Shown piece by piece: positions 1,501 to 64,000 of a stretch of DNA of 64,000 nucleotides (within the stretch, counting starts at the first letter, position 1; the number at the start of each line of letters is the position of its first letter). Under the pieces are notes generated by a model. It was not told the origin of the DNA. It made no database searches and saw only the letters and a program-made list of their open reading frames with translations. This DNA comes from Chitinophagales bacterium. GTDB lineage: Bacteria > Bacteroidota > Bacteroidia > Chitinophagales > LD1. Position numbers and translations under genes: made by a program. The DNA lies in NCBI GenBank assembly GCA_016787045.1, contig JAEUVA010000008.1:1-64000 (forward strand). Direction: 5' to 3'.

Positions 1501-4500
1501 TTAGTATTTAACTAGTTTACCAGTATGCTGTTTATCATTTGCTACCAATTGGTAATAATAAACGCCTGCATTTACGTTGGCTGCCTGCCATACCCACCTT
1601 CCGTTTTCGCTGCGCTCGTTATATTGCAACCGACCGCTTGCATCGGTAATGTTCAGCGTTCCGCCCTGTACTCTCTCTGCGCTAAAGTTAAAGCTGCCAT
1701 CTGATGGGTTGGGCCATACTTGCAAAACAAAGTCAGTGAGTGTGTCAGCAGTTATCAATTGAATATCTTCCGTCTCATCTGTTTTGAAGGTATTGATGTT
1801 GTTGTGTGTTTCGGGGCCTGACACATTACACTCGGTTACGTAATGTGCATTTACCCAATCTACCTTGTATAATTTGTGGTTGCTCTTTGTATAAAACAAG
1901 CGCCCAAAGCTACCATGCTCTATTGCTATATGTCCGGCTATTTTATGGTCATATGCTAAGGGCGTTTTGTGCCAGTTGGCTTTGCTGACTAGTGTAACTT
2001 TAGATGTACTCAGGTCAGTTACAAAACTGTGTTCTTTGTCATTAAAATAATACCACAGATTACCGTCCAAACCTTTGTAATAAACCATGTTTCTATCTGA
2101 ATTTAATGTTAGATTGCTTTGAGCATTATAGTAATCGCTACAACGAGTCTCGTTGTTGATGTCATTTGAGGTTTCTTTTGTCTTGTCTGCATACGACACC
2201 CTGCTATTTCCTAACTTAAACAAGCCGTAGGGCTTAGGACTGCTGTAATCGTAGCTGTAGTAATACACGGCATGGTCGCTGCCGATAAAAAACACTCGGG
2301 CGTTGGTTTCGTCTAATGCTACCTCATCGGTTACTATATTCTGGTTAACCACCGGCACCATGCTATGCCAGGAACCTGCCCAGTACAGTTGTCGCAGCTT
2401 GTTTTGCGCATCACGGTAAAACACTAAGCAGCCGCAGTTGGCCATTACCAAACCGCCACGAACGCTTCCGTCATACGTTACCTGCTCCAACCAGTTGCTG
2501 CCAGGGTGCCAGCAGAACAAGTTGTGGTCTGTGCCCTTGTACCATATTCGCTGGCCGTTGTCGGTGATAGTGATGTACCCGTCACAATTGCTTATTATGG
2601 CGGGTTGGTTACTAATTGGTTTGTTGTAAAGTGCTTTGGATTTACTCCATGTGCCGTTGTTGTTTTTAAAATAGCTCAGGTGATTGTAATGGTTCTGAAA
2701 ATATACAAGGTTGGCGTTCACCGGTGTCATCCAGTCTTTCACATCTCCGCCAAATAGGTTCACTGGCAAAGGCCGCTCAATCCACTTACCAGCATACCCC
2801 CAACTTCCATCGTCAATAAAAGCCATATATCCCCGCTTATCAGTACCGTATCCCCTGTAAAAAATACGCACATTGCTACCAGTACCTGTTATACCCATTC
2901 GTGTTCCACCAATATCATGCGAATTAGACTTTAGTATCTCAAAATAAACCGCCTTGTTATTAGAACCTGCAGCAAATATACCATTAGAAAACAAGCTCAA
3001 TGCTGGCGTTTCAGGTGTCTTAGGCGCTCCGCTTAACCTATTTTGCATATATATATCGCCCCCAATATTCCCATCATCTGGCGTATAATGCCTGAAATAA
3101 TCCACTTCAAACACTGCTTCATCATACTCACCGCCCCATGTCTGTAAACTAATAATTAAATCGGCTTGCCAATTCGCTATAGCACTCGGGAAAGTAGCTC
3201 CATTGTAAGTAATCTTCTTCCCCCAAACCTCTTTGCCATCTACAAAAAAAGTAATGTCGTTACCCACCGTATATACCATGGTGAAGGTGTGCCAATCCTG
3301 TGTATAGTCGCAGGGGGTTTGCTTGTATATCATGCCCTGACAACCTCTGCTGCCTTGTCCGTTGTAATTGTAATCAATAACATTTATCGGAAATTTCTGA
3401 TGAAACAGAACTGGATCTTCATTGGAGGAAGACCACCCAGCTCTGTCAATTACATCAATCTCTGTAGTGTGGTAGTTTGGACTGCCATTATTTTCAAAAA
3501 ACCAAAAGGTAGGCCACGACCCTTTTTCGGTAGGTAGTTTACACCGTATTTCGTAGATACCACTATGACTAAAGTCAAATTTGTTTCTAGAGTACAGAAG
3601 GCCTGATTTGTAATCGAATCTTTTCAAAGAACAGGGATCCGAAGATGCTCCCACCGTGTAATTTTGACATTGTTCGTCAGATGCAGGACCGTTTGAATCT
3701 ATACAAGTACCGCAACTTAAACTTACAGGATTTGGACTAAGCTTAGTGGCCTTAACATATACCACACCATTGTTAAAAGTTACCTCACCAGCACTACCAT
3801 CCACACCATTTCCAATACCTGGGTAGTCGGTATTCCCCATATTATGAAACTGTGTTTGACAATACTGGGACCAAATATTATGGTTCCCGCAATGTTTCGC
3901 ACTCAAGGGATCAGATCCTCCTGCCCACCCATAATTTAATGCCCATTTATCAGAAAATTTTGCACCAACATCTGACGGCATAATTTTATCATAGTCAAAC
4001 TCATCACTTTTCGCTGCATCATATACCCAGCGGCTTTTATCTATCAAACTAGCGCTTAACATAAAGTACGGTGTTCGTATCGGTATTTTTATCGGCTTAC
4101 TGGCTTTTCGAGTGCTACTATTTTTGCTTCTTAGGTATAACACGGTATCTGCTCCACTGGGTAAGGCAAGTGTAACGTTTACTGGTGAAGTAGAAATAAA
4201 TGTCGTATCAAAGTTAGCATAAAATGACCACTCCACTTCATCGCCATTAACCCCGGCAAAAATGCTATCAATCATTAAAGTCAATTCTCCGATAGTATCT
4301 GCTATAACAACTATTTCATCCGGAGCTACCGGTATTCCAATATCGGTTACTTTAACACTCAAATCCCTTTGTACATATCCACACCCAGTTGCGCCATGTG
4401 CGGTCGCCCGTATTACAAAATCGGTTGTAGCTGAACTGACACAACCACTTAAACTATCTAATTGGGCTGTACCACTCACAATATTGTAGACTATTCTGTC

Positions 4501-7500
4501 GGCATTATTTCCTATAGCGGAATAACAAACTGTGTCTCCGGTAAAAAATAGAGAATCGTATTGTGTAAACTCTACCGTATCAACGAATTGAACAGGAACT
4601 AATGCATAACAAATGTCGAGTGTTACCATATCCCCGCTGCTTGTATCCTGCATAAATACTCTCATGGTTGTAACGCTGTCAATTGCCCCTGTACCCAATA
4701 CCAGTGTTCCGCCATTCCCCCATCCGCTATTCACAATTGTTGTGTCTTCCAACAAGTAGTATTTATTGCCAACAACAGTACCATAAATCGGTACCTCGCC
4801 AGCAAACCCGGCACATACGCCAATCATGGTATCCTTTATCTGTGGTATGTTTTCTACGGTATGAACTAGGGCAATTGTGCTGCTCACCTCGCTCACGCAT
4901 CCGTTGCCAGTATCGCGGCTTTGCAGCCAGAGCATGGCAAACGTGTCGGTAGCTACTGCAAAGCCAAAAGTTGCGGGACTGTTCAAGGTATCAGCACTCG
5001 CAAAATTTTCTTGTAAGCTCCATATCAACTCACCGCCACCAAATCCGGCATATATACTATCGTAATTAAAATAATACCCCGTATCACTCACCACACTCTG
5101 CGGAGCCGGAGGTGTTACCCGCTCCGGCTTGAGGTTCACCCTCCCCGTCACATACACCCTCCCACTCACACAACCCGTAACGCTATTTCTGCTCCGCAGC
5201 CACACCGTATCCGTTTCGCCCACATTCACCGTTAGGTAAATGCCCCCCTCTCCTACAGGAGAGGGGCTGGGGGTGAGGTGGCTGCTGGCAAACGCAGCAT
5301 TGTCTGCCCATTCAATACTATCCCCACCACTACCCACCAGTACACTATCCCACACAAACGTATAAGCCGTATCGCTGCAAGCGCTTTTTGCCGCCAAAGC
5401 GGGCGGAGCAGCGGGCAAAGCCCCCACTGCAAACTCCCCACTCGCAGCGCTCACATAAATCGCATTGCTCGTTTTTATACGTATGCGGTAATGCGAGCCC
5501 GGCAACACCGTATCGGCTATACTCACCCACAAGCTGTCCCAGCCCGGTGCTCCGGTAGCGGTTTTGTGGCCAATCACCTTAGCAGAGGCAAAACTGCCGC
5601 TGCTATCGCTCAACTCTGCGGTAAATACATTCCCTTCATTAAAATACCGCGTATTTTTAAATCGGGCATACAAGCTGCTGCCCGGGCACACTACACTCGG
5701 CATCTTTACACTGTCTATAGCCGCAGCACTGCCATAGGTACCTCTAAAAACAGCCATGTTGTTATTCACCCCGCCCTGTGCGGTGCTAAACACACCACCT
5801 GCCCATATCCGGCCGTTTACCTCATCGGCATACAGCCGCTTGCAGTACCCCGCTATATAATACACATACCCCATACCGTCTCCGGTATAAAAAGTAGCAT
5901 CCGTTTGTCCGTTGGTTTTTATTGAACCGAGGTACATCTTGCTCGTGCTATTCACCTGTGTAAAAGCCCCGGCCACCAAATACATACTATCCACTTTCAA
6001 AAACTCTTGTACATGAAAGTTCGCACCCCCTGCAAAAACGGTGTCCACACTGCCGTTAGTGTTCAACCGCGCCATACGGCTGGCAGCTATTCCGTTAAAG
6101 GAGGTGTAGCAATTCACCAACAGCTTTCCATCCGGTTGCAGTTGCAAGGCCTGTATCGTAGTGCTGCTGGTAGTGGTTCCCGCATCAAAGGTGTTGTCTG
6201 CCGCACCGGTGCTATCTACTCTTCGTAGCAGCGAGCAAGGTGTGCCACCGCATCCGCCAGACACAGTTCCTCCTCCACCAATCACTTTACCATCGGGTTG
6301 CTCTACTATGTCGTGTACTGCCGCGCTAAAAGTGGTGCCGGCATTAAAACCGGCATCTAAACTGCCATTACTATTGAGCCGGCATACCCGGTTTCGGGTA
6401 GTGCCGTTGTAACTCGTAAAACTACCTGCTATATACAACTTGCCGCTGCTTGCCCACTTGGCCTCGTTTATTGCTGCATTGGCTCCGCTGCCGCTTTGGT
6501 AGGTACTGTCTATGCTGCCATCGCTATGTAGTCGGGCAATCCGGTTTTTAGACACGCCATTGTAGGTAGTAAAACTACCCGCTATTACTATCTTATCATC
6601 TGGCTGCACCAGTACCGCATTTATCACCCCATTAGCACCCGTACCACTGCCAAAGCCGCTATCCAGACTCCCATCGCGGTTAAGCCGCATTATCCGGTTC
6701 ACCGTATCACCATTGTATCGTACAAAATCTCCGGCCACTATGGTTTTACCGCTGCTTTGTGTACCAAAAGCCAGTACCGGCCCATCCGCACCGCTGTTTT
6801 TCATAAAGCCCTTGTCTAAACTGCCACTACTGCTCAGCTTAGCTAAGCCCAGCCGCCCAAAACCGTTTACAGTGGTAAACGTACCCCCCACAAACACACT
6901 GCCGTCATAGTTTAGCCAGATAGCATTACTGCTGTAATCTAATCCCGTACCGGCAGTAAACGTAGTATCGCGTGTGCCATTACTGTCTAGCCGCACCACT
7001 CGCCCAAGTGTGGTGCCATCATAACTCGTAAAGTGCCCGATAACCAAAAGTTTTCCATCGCTCTGCCACACCATTTCATTCACTTGCGCACCACCAAAAC
7101 CGCTACCGCTGCTGTAGGTGCCATCTACCGTGCCCGTACTGCTTAACCGCACAATGCGGTTCACCGTGCTGCCATTAAATTGTGTAAAGTACCCTGCAAA
7201 TATCGCTTCCCCTCCCGGTTGAAGCGCTACTTCATTCACCGTATTGTTAGCGCCACTCGTTGCCGTGCTGTAAGCCGTATCTAATACCCCGCTGCTTTTC
7301 AGCCGAGCTATGCGCGTGCAACTTACCCCGCTCACAGTCGTAAAACTACCCCCTATCACCAACCGCCCGCTCGTGTCCCGGGCTATACAAAATATGGTAT
7401 TGTTTACCGATACGCTAAAGCTACTGTACAAACTCCCATTGCTGTTCAGCTTAGCCACCCGCTGCCGGGTGCTGCCATTATATGTAGTAAACGTACCCAC

Positions 7501-7962
7501 CACCACCAACTCTCCACCGGCCAGTAACTCTATATCATACACCGATCCGTTAAATCCCGTGCCTATACTAAAACTCGTATCTCGGCTGCCATCACTCATT
7601 AGCCGCACTATGCGATTGCAACTGCTCCCGTTGTATTGGGTAAAATCGCCTCCCACAATCAGCCGCCCGTTGGGCTGCTCTACCACTACATTCACCTCTC
7701 CGTTAAAGCCGCTGCCGATGTCAAAACTGTAATCATTAGTACCATCCTGTTTCAACTTCGCCAGCCGGTTGATGGCCCGCTCATGCACCCGCTCAAATGC
7801 CCCGCCTATCACAATACCACTATCTTGTGCTACCAAACCCGTGTTCACCTTCACCGGCACCCCCATTGGTTGGTAAATAGTGGTATAAACTTCCCCTAAC
7901 TGTTGCGCCATGGTCAGGCCGCATAGCAACACGGCAAAGCCGGTGAGTAAACATCTTTTCAT
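1501..7962 (-). CDS. Giant T9SS cargo: delta-60 repeats, Ig-like, GH16-like, lectin-like propeller
   Basis: This is a 2153-aa secreted protein. A signal peptide (MKRCLLTGFAVLLCGLTMAQ) is followed by about 13 delta-60-type repeats of about 50 aa (residues about 30-750; pattern QPDGKLLVxGxFTxYNG...RIxRLNxDGSLD). Three or more Ig-like domains follow (about 750-1290), then a GH16-like concanavalin domain (about 1300-1625) with the signature EIDVID at 1501-1506. A region of V/IxYxxxDxxLxxY blades (about 1690-2060) resembles PLL/tectonin-type lectin propellers. The last part is a T9SS type-A sorting domain (about 2078-2153, starting VWPNPSDG). GH16 enzymes cleave beta-1,3/1,4-glucans or galactans using the two acids of ExDxxE; here the last acid is Asp, so activity is uncertain. 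A palindromic repeat (5245-5278) is inserted in frame in the first Ig-like domain. It is the first gene of an operon with the next T9SS protein. A surface polysaccharide-binding or -degrading role is inferred. Confidence 0.85.
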   Translation of the reverse strand: MKRCLLTGFAVLLCGLTMAQQLGEVYTTIYQPMGVPVKVNTGLVAQDSGIVIGGAFERVHERAINRLAKLKQDGTNDYSFDIGSGFNGEVNVVVEQPNGRLIVGGDFTQYNGSSCNRIVRLMSDGSRDTSFSIGTGFNGSVYDIELLAGGELVVVGTFTTYNGSTRQRVAKLNSNGSLYSSFSVSVNNTIFCIARDTSGRLVIGGSFTTVSGVSCTRIARLKSSGVLDTAYSTATSGANNTVNEVALQPGGEAIFAGYFTQFNGSTVNRIVRLSSTGTVDGTYSSGSGFGGAQVNEMVWQSDGKLLVIGHFTSYDGTTLGRVVRLDSNGTRDTTFTAGTGLDYSSNAIWLNYDGSVFVGGTFTTVNGFGRLGLAKLSSSGSLDKGFMKNSGADGPVLAFGTQSSGKTIVAGDFVRYNGDTVNRIMRLNRDGSLDSGFGSGTGANGVINAVLVQPDDKIVIAGSFTTYNGVSKNRIARLHSDGSIDSTYQSGSGANAAINEAKWASSGKLYIAGSFTSYNGTTRNRVCRLNSNGSLDAGFNAGTTFSAAVHDIVEQPDGKVIGGGGTVSGGCGGTPCSLLRRVDSTGAADNTFDAGTTTSSTTIQALQLQPDGKLLVNCYTSFNGIAASRMARLNTNGSVDTVFAGGANFHVQEFLKVDSMYLVAGAFTQVNSTSKMYLGSIKTNGQTDATFYTGDGMGYVYYIAGYCKRLYADEVNGRIWAGGVFSTAQGGVNNNMAVFRGTYGSAAAIDSVKMPSVVCPGSSLYARFKNTRYFNEGNVFTAELSDSSGSFASAKVIGHKTATGAPGWDSLWVSIADTVLPGSHYRIRIKTSNAIYVSAASGEFAVGALPAAPPALAAKSACSDTAYTFVWDSVLVGSGGDSIEWADNAAFASSHLTPSPSPVGEGGIYLTVNVGETDTVWLRSRNSVTGCVSGRVYVTGRVNLKPERVTPPAPQSVVSDTGYYFNYDSIYAGFGGGELIWSLQENFASADTLNSPATFGFAVATDTFAMLWLQSRDTGNGCVSEVSSTIALVHTVENIPQIKDTMIGVCAGFAGEVPIYGTVVGNKYYLLEDTTIVNSGWGNGGTLVLGTGAIDSVTTMRVFMQDTSSGDMVTLDICYALVPVQFVDTVEFTQYDSLFFTGDTVCYSAIGNNADRIVYNIVSGTAQLDSLSGCVSSATTDFVIRATAHGATGCGYVQRDLSVKVTDIGIPVAPDEIVVIADTIGELTLMIDSIFAGVNGDEVEWSFYANFDTTFISTSPVNVTLALPSGADTVLYLRSKNSSTRKASKPIKIPIRTPYFMLSASLIDKSRWVYDAAKSDEFDYDKIMPSDVGAKFSDKWALNYGWAGGSDPLSAKHCGNHNIWSQYCQTQFHNMGNTDYPGIGNGVDGSAGEVTFNNGVVYVKATKLSPNPVSLSCGTCIDSNGPASDEQCQNYTVGASSDPCSLKRFDYKSGLLYSRNKFDFSHSGIYEIRCKLPTEKGSWPTFWFFENNGSPNYHTTEIDVIDRAGWSSSNEDPVLFHQKFPINVIDYNYNGQGSRGCQGMIYKQTPCDYTQDWHTFTMVYTVGNDITFFVDGKEVWGKKITYNGATFPSAIANWQADLIISLQTWGGEYDEAVFEVDYFRHYTPDDGNIGGDIYMQNRLSGAPKTPETPALSLFSNGIFAAGSNNKAVYFEILKSNSHDIGGTRMGITGTGSNVRIFYRGYGTDKRGYMAFIDDGSWGYAGKWIERPLPVNLFGGDVKDWMTPVNANLVYFQNHYNHLSYFKNNNGTWSKSKALYNKPISNQPAIISNCDGYITITDNGQRIWYKGTDHNLFCWHPGSNWLEQVTYDGSVRGGLVMANCGCLVFYRDAQNKLRQLYWAGSWHSMVPVVNQNIVTDEVALDETNARVFFIGSDHAVYYYSYDYSSPKPYGLFKLGNSRVSYADKTKETSNDINNETRCSDYYNAQSNLTLNSDRNMVYYKGLDGNLWYYFNDKEHSFVTDLSTSKVTLVSKANWHKTPLAYDHKIAGHIAIEHGSFGRLFYTKSNHKLYKVDWVNAHYVTECNVSGPETHNNINTFKTDETEDIQLITADTLTDFVLQVWPNPSDGSFNFSAERVQGGTLNITDASGRLQYNERSENGRWVWQAANVNAGVYYYQLVANDKQHTGKLVKY
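5245..5278. repeat. Dispersed palindromic repeat, copy 1 (inside the 2153-aa gene)
   Basis: This 34-bp element has the core CTCTCCT...AGGAGAG and a G-rich tail ending GGGGGTGAGG. It matches 63498-63531 at 31 of 34 positions. On the minus strand it encodes LTPSPSPVGEGG without breaking the frame. Two paralogous Ig-like domains of the same protein have no equivalent peptide at this point. Confidence 0.75.
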
Positions 7963-63490: not shown

Positions 63491-63497
63491 TCCATCT

Positions 63498-63531
63498 CCC
63501 CTCTCCTTTAGGAGAGGGGCAGGGGGTGAGG
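63498..63531. repeat. Dispersed palindromic repeat, copy 2 (between kinase and regulator)
   Basis: The element contains CTCTCCT-tt-AGGAGAG followed by GGGGCAGGGGGTGAGG and matches 5245-5278 at 31 of 34 positions in the same strand orientation. It occupies most of the 52-nt gap between the histidine kinase stop (63490) and the regulator start (63543), where a transcript hairpin could alter the ratio of the two proteins. Confidence 0.75.
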
Positions 63532-63542
63532 AAACTTGAAAA

Positions 63543-64000
63543 ATGAGTAACGAAGCCGAAATATTGGTAATAGATGACGAAGCGCAAATTCGGAAGTTGT
63601 TAGACATAACACTACGCACCAACGGCTACCGAGTAAACGAAGCACAAACCGCGCGCGAAGGAATAACGAAAGCCGCTAGCCATCCTCCCGATTTAATTTT
63701 GCTGGACATTGGCTTGCCCGATGGAAGTGGACATGATGTGTTGCTGAAGCTGCGAGAGTGGTTTACCAACCCTATAATTGTGCTGTCTGTGTTAAACAGC
63801 GAAACCGACATTGTAAAAGCTTTAGACAATGGAGCTAACGATTATCTGGTAAAGCCATTTCGCACCGGTGAATTGCTGGCGCGTATTCGCTCGGTGTTGC
63901 GTAAAAACCAAACTGATGAAAACAACCCGGTGTTGCAGTTGGGTAAACTTACCATTGACTTTGTGGCGCGCACTATCAAAAAGAATAACGCGCTGCTCAA
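63543..64000 (+). CDS. kdpE: KdpE-like response regulator (C-terminus cut by window edge)
   Basis: In the window 152 codons are present. The receiver domain is complete: acidic pair D11/D12 (ILVIDDEAQ), phospho-acceptor D55 (LILLDIGLPDG), S82 (IVLSVLN) and K104 (DYLVKPF). A linker follows, and the start of an OmpR-type winged helix (LQLGKLTIDF) runs off the edge. GLPDGSG and the strong match of the receiver to KdpE, together with the KdpD-like kinase 52 nt upstream, support control of kdp potassium-uptake genes. The kdpFABC genes themselves are not in the window. Confidence 0.85.
   Translation, partial: MSNEAEILVIDDEAQIRKLLDITLRTNGYRVNEAQTAREGITKAASHPPDLILLDIGLPDGSGHDVLLKLREWFTNPIIVLSVLNSETDIVKALDNGANDYLVKPFRTGELLARIRSVLRKNQTDENNPVLQLGKLTIDFVARTIKKNNALL

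Follow-up and report, generated by a model that had tools for sequence, protein, structure and literature searches.

A three-tract, triplex-type palindrome lying in frame in a secreted Chitinophagales protein belongs to a dispersed repeat family linked to DUF559 genes

The stretch analysed here (the window, 64,000 nucleotides of a Chitinophagales bacterium contig) raises the question of how a short palindrome came to lie in frame inside a secreted protein, and which enzyme might spread it. A preliminary description had reported that the 34-mer at 5245-5278 has a second copy at 63498-63531, and direct reading confirms this, with 31 of the 34 positions identical. The first copy, taken as a unit of about 36 bp at 5243-5278, encodes LTPSPSPVGEGG on the minus strand within the gene for a secreted 2153-aa protein (1501-7962, minus strand; DUF5122 beta-propeller, Ig-like domains, GH16 and Por_Secre_tail), whose ORF is open across the element and places the peptide at about residues 896-907. 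The second copy (63496-63531, minus strand) is intergenic, with a sensor-kinase ORF on one side and, on the other, a response-regulator ORF that starts near 63544. That a GC-rich, low-complexity Ig-like loop came to resemble an intergenic repeat by chance might seem compatible with the net loop gain of only about 5 residues relative to orthologues, but such a coincidence has to contend with the 31/34 identity, with the zero matches to the element pattern expected in the window (100 dinucleotide-preserving shuffles), with sharp edges common to 125 aligned copies from many genomes and several phyla, and with multiple independent in-frame copies; the shuffles and the copy census exclude it, and we give it practically no credence. 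Elsewhere in the window, positions 432-450 hold about 15 consecutive C (G on the minus strand), possibly a slippage-prone homopolymer.

On the plus strand the in-frame copy reads CCCCTCTCC-TACA-GGAGAGGGG-CT-GGGGGTGAGG, that is, a pyrimidine arm (5245-5253), a loop (5254-5257), a purine arm (5258-5266), a spacer (5267-5268) and a third purine-rich tract (5269-5278) that mirrors the purine arm, giving a Y-R-R' layout in which a hairpin is followed by a potential third strand. Across the aligned copies the unit runs from CCTCACCCCC to CCCCTCTCCTnnAGGAGAGGGGAG. The preliminary description had missed both this third tract and the DUF559 neighbour discussed below. BoxC/PIT repeats, known from E. coli since the 1990s, and the TM_ECO elements share with the present family the three-tract layout and a dispersed occurrence in many bacteria. 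TM_ECO elements are 34-37 nt long, with a pyrimidine arm, loop, purine arm, spacer and mirror purine strand of the class II purine motif (Holder et al. 2015, PMC4666352; Hoyne and Maher cited there), in which the third strand forms G.GC, A.AT or T.AT. Their triplex formation in vitro was demonstrated by CD and NMR on a sequence different from that of the window element, and in vivo footprinting did not support a stable triplex in cells (PMC4666352). Judged by its architecture, the window element is a class-II intrastrand-triplex-type repeat of the BoxC/PIT/TM_ECO kind. It departs from the TM_ECO consensus CCCTCNCCCN3-6GGGNGAGGGN3GGGNGAGGG, its arms being CCCCTCTCC/GGAGAGGGG and its spacer 2 nt long; the architecture is related and the family is different. 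Predicted DNA folding of the single window copy gives a z of -1.2, which is not significant alone, and the triplex-type case rests on the repeat family and not on one fold.

The element had been likened in concept to the Rickettsia palindromic elements, as a dispersed palindrome that keeps the reading frame, and the further copies that we found bear this out. The 3.62-Mb genome contains about seven copies, two more of which are in frame: one in cas1 (C4:479894-479914, L008; Pfam Cas_Cas1), where the peptide SPPTPLLKKERGE sits between two conserved regions and is missing in solved Cas1 proteins, and one in hsdM (C15:47275). Relatives rarely carry the element (4 of 30 family genomes), and its occurrence is patchy among close relatives. 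An exact pattern scan nevertheless returned at least 119 stretches in Bacteroidota, Chloroflexota, Nitrospirota, Spirochaetota, Patescibacteria and others, with up to 67 copies (34 + 33) counted in one genome. Of the 110 exact copies listed with enough context, 48 (44%) are in frame within ORFs of 200 aa or more that continue for 30 or more codons on either side, compared with 73% of random positions in the same loci; genes are therefore avoided by the element, but far from excluded. Almost all coding copies fall in four of the six frames, and one frame always has TGA. The hosts of in-frame copies include a YsxC-type GTPase, Mfd, MetH and a class I aminoacyl-tRNA synthetase, as well as a class I/II aminotransferase and a carbon-nitrogen hydrolase. 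As with Rickettsia palindromic elements, these are short palindromes in frame in genes and absent from homologues (the window protein, cas1, hsdM and 48/110 others), adding extra peptides to unrelated proteins; they differ in sequence and architecture, and in the linked nuclease identified here. The intragenic RPE-4 and RPE-6 of R. conorii correspond to CGTC REPs (PMC3733652). Beside the element, L071 (about 2840) and L066 hold other repeat families, namely a CGTC-type REP (CGTCATTGCGGGCTTGACCCGCAATC) and a triplex-type repeat, CCCCTTTAGGGGATTTAGGGG.

How the element sits in the host protein is less simple than had been proposed. The peptide is indeed absent from two paralogous Ig-like domains of the same protein, and also from same-genus homologues (L344, L346 and L348; 41-48% identity), but the alignments do not clearly show an insertion: the loop exceeds its homologues by only 5-6 residues, a net gain of about +5 aa and not +12, and part of it seems to have been replaced rather than simply lengthened. 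A clean empty site was sought among orthologues of the window protein and among Paludibacter orthologues, where we found replacement or partial deletion and no precise 36-bp insertion, and in the E. coli intervals sapF-fabI, adk-hemH and frlR-yhfS, where again only replacements or partial deletions were found. A literature search with the encoded peptides gave no match.

If the element were a classical REP mobilised in trans by a RAYT (Y1 transposase), it should lie near RAYT genes. The preliminary description had called the element REP-like; its size and hairpin do resemble those of REPs, and 27 of 28 carrier genomes encode Y1_Tnp proteins. However, when 31 and then 51 RAYT loci of carrier genomes were searched within 400 bp, allowing up to 6 mismatches, none of the 51 had the element and only one had any repeat of the three-tract architecture, so RAYT was rejected as the mobility enzyme and the REP/RAYT assignment is not supported. 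The two large REP superfamilies are marked by a GTAG or a CGTC tag (PMC3733652), and the element lacks both, the 125 aligned copies starting with CCTCACC and finishing with GGGGAG. The window was rightly said to lack a RAYT-type gene, as the genome's one Y1_Tnp gene lies outside it. Mobilisation by a RAYT is thus very improbable.

The neighbours of DUF559 genes gave a very different picture. With up to 3 mismatches allowed, 19 of 67 DUF559 loci of carrier genomes have the element within 400 bp, 10 of them with copies on both sides, against 0 of 51 RAYT loci and about 0.36 of the 67 expected at genomic density. The window's own genome has just one DUF559 gene (C4:269141-269482), preceded by an element variant and followed by four tandem units that also contain variants; these units, at L252:1700-2480 (C4 about 268.8-269.6 kb), are roughly 70-110 bp long and each combines the element with a second palindrome, GCTCCGCGCAGCGGAGC. 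We then asked for the architecture irrespective of sequence. This test was developed with the carrier genomes, made stricter (third-strand match 0.85, four or more G) and then left as it was for the Bacteroidota and Chloroflexota sets. Among 148 Bacteroidota genomes picked regardless of repeat, a triplex-type palindrome lies within 400 bp of 46 of 70 DUF559 loci, compared with 1 of 51 for the RAYT control (Fisher 2.5e-14), and repeat density is 1.62/kb within 400 bp of DUF559 versus 0.07/kb beyond 800 bp. The same script gave 19 of 29 DUF559 loci in Chloroflexota (2.43 versus 0.05/kb) and, in a plasmid-collection sample (Alpha- and Gammaproteobacteria, Deinococcota, Cyanobacteriota), 7 of 12. 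Individual linked loci come from Azospirillum, Sphingomonas, Deinococcus, Klebsiella, Photobacterium and Pseudanabaena; in an Fe-S assembly operon of a Sphingomonas parapaucimobilis plasmid (L416), the DUF559 gene separates sufB from sufC and is itself bracketed by triplex-type repeats. Such repeats are missing from the 400 bp around roughly one DUF559 locus in three, and 3 of 29 carrier genomes have no DUF559, including a Hymenobacter with 63 copies. The linkage thus exceeds the genomic background in both phyla and extends to the window's own genome, and the association of BoxC/PIT-class repeats with DUF559 genes is new in this analysis.

The repeats at these loci are organised. The nearest flanking pairs are inverted in 44 cases and direct in 12 (p = 2e-5). 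A perfect mirrored third strand accompanies 61 of 102 distinct purine arms (60%), versus 4.7% with shuffled flanks, and the third strand is a mirror copy in 55 of 93 cases and a direct copy in 6 of 93; because simple duplication cannot yield mirror symmetry, the pattern speaks for selection on a triplex-like structure of three strands. The more alike two elements are, the more alike their DUF559 neighbours tend to be (Mantel r 0.37, 0/1999 permutations, n=59, one locus per genome), a correlation that shared descent of gene and repeat, as predicted for a linked pair, would also produce.

DUF559 (PF04480) has the consensus E..lW...kFrRQh...DF...L.iE.DG..H across 165 proteins, with the acidic and Q/H residues kept, and its sequence relatives with a solved structure are 3hrl (endonuclease-like) and 3r3p (mobile intron protein), the latter of which we take to be I-Bth0305I, an EDxHD/Vsr-fold homing endonuclease. 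To our knowledge the Pfam entry gives its function as unknown. With this active-site motif and nuclease homology, DUF559 is a predicted nuclease of the Vsr-like PD-(D/E)XK type. YcjD has been placed in PD-(D/E)XK near Vsr, and its profile detects Vsr (PMC1189080). A mismatch-repair role has been proposed for the Caulobacter DUF559 protein VsrA (PMC12907096). DUF559 also occurs in frame inside conserved proteins, namely LeuS (at more than one position), MetH, HsdR, RecG, and type ISP and N6/N4 methylases, and is fused to TrpA. In a LeuS alignment from several Chitinophagaceae contigs, a 110-aa DUF559 domain is in frame with oppositely oriented elements on either side. One Bacteroidota and one Chloroflexota genome (L288 and L407) have a MetH with an in-frame DUF559 near the B12-binding domains. 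Two contigs (L055 and L059) are titled Streptomyces griseus MAG; since the L055 LeuS shares ~91% DNA identity with Chitinophagaceae contig L117, the record name of L055 is probably wrong. DUF559 domains resemble intein and intron homing nucleases in lying in frame within conserved genes, and are related in sequence to 3r3p. They differ from the EDxHD/Vsr homing endonucleases in that Pfam scans found no intron or intein splicing domain, in the inverted triplex-type repeats that flank DUF559, and in that DUF559 is also a stand-alone gene with dispersed solo repeats. With REP/RAYT (REPtron, PMC3733652) the system shares short palindromes in inverted pairs around a small gene for a nuclease or transposase, numerous non-autonomous copies scattered elsewhere and occasional in-frame copies; here, however, the enzyme is the PD-(D/E)XK-like DUF559 and not HUH/Y1, and the repeat has three-tract triplex symmetry, no GTAG/CGTC tag and no RAYT link.

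E. coli offers a parallel case. Its DUF559 gene is ycjD (PF04480 match 1.4e-49), located between sapF and fabI; in K-12 a degenerate BoxC lies at the gene end, and a canonical BoxC about 215 bp downstream is TM_ECO no. 9 (PMC4666352). A PF04480 profile search of the E. coli control genome gave no match, though the MG1655 record has ycjD. Across 60 E. coli genomes spread over the ranking, those with ycjD (n=37) have 13-30 BoxC places and those lacking it (n=23) have 1-16, a comparison in which ycjD is confounded with phylogroup; the ycjD-negative O157 still has 15 copies. The gene is found in phylogroups A, B1 and C and also in ST69 and ST182, while the eef operon takes its place elsewhere (PMC12817139). 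TM_ECO elements were described as always intergenic and without a linked mobility gene (PMC4666352), whereas the present family is 44% in-frame intragenic among the exact copies listed.

We consider it likely that the window element is a dispersed palindrome of the BoxC/PIT kind with DUF559 as its dedicated partner in a nuclease-driven, homing-like system, in which DUF559 probably serves to spread or maintain the repeats. Mobility of the repeats is itself inferred. In such a system the DUF559 nuclease would recognise the repeat in its folded or triplex form, or else its target, and nick or cut the DNA, and repair would copy the repeat, or a whole repeat-DUF559-repeat unit, into the break in a homing-like manner. 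Since polymorphic sites give the impression of replacement and not of clean filling, the incoming repeat may take the place of a short piece of recipient DNA. Copies in tolerant loops could then survive as short peptides, because the unit is 36 bp long and open in four or five of the six frames, while purifying selection would remove others.

Alternatively, the repeats may be landing sites or recombination substrates and DUF559 a selfish homing gene that settles at or close to pre-existing triplex repeats, in which case the linkage reflects target choice. The kinship with the mobile intron protein 3r3p, the large excess of repeats over DUF559 genes in many genomes and the presence of BoxC in E. 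coli lineages without ycjD agree with this, but a homing gene would not by itself explain why whole inverted repeats stand on both sides (44 versus 12) in place of split repeats, why repeat type tracks DUF559 type across genomes, or why repeats are more numerous where ycjD is present; we regard it as unlikely. It is less likely still that the repeats are selected structures (replication or transcription triplexes, or terminators) that spread by ordinary recombination, with DUF559 as a structure-specific repair nuclease. The co-variation of third strand and hairpin, the association of such motifs with local genome instability (Holder et al., PMC4666352) and the repair role proposed for Caulobacter VsrA (PMC12907096) fit a functional structure, which nonetheless leaves unexplained the in-frame copies in cas1, hsdM, mfd, leuS and the secreted protein, the patchy occurrence among close relatives and the fact that gene and repeat are physically linked in two phyla.

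Extended beyond this genome, the DUF559-partner reading has an even chance, in our estimate, of describing a class of mobile system that has so far gone unrecognised. In it, a Vsr-fold nuclease would recognise a triplex or triplex-capable strand and propagate solo repeats and repeat-DUF559-repeat units across phyla, often in frame in essential genes, with ycjD and BoxC of K-12 as an example. The repeat accounts for odd proline/glycine-rich peptides in conserved proteins of Bacteroidota and Chloroflexota (LTPNPSPxGEG, PLSxRRGxGGE, SPPxPLLKERG, PSPxGEGxGVR), and a nuclease domain is found repeatedly lodged in frame in LeuS and MetH. That the third strand co-varies with the hairpin provides evidence from evolution for selection on triplex symmetry itself. 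Finally, the link between DUF559 and BoxC gives both a testable role, and through ycjD it makes the spread of the repeats and the cellular role of the DNA triplex testable in K-12.
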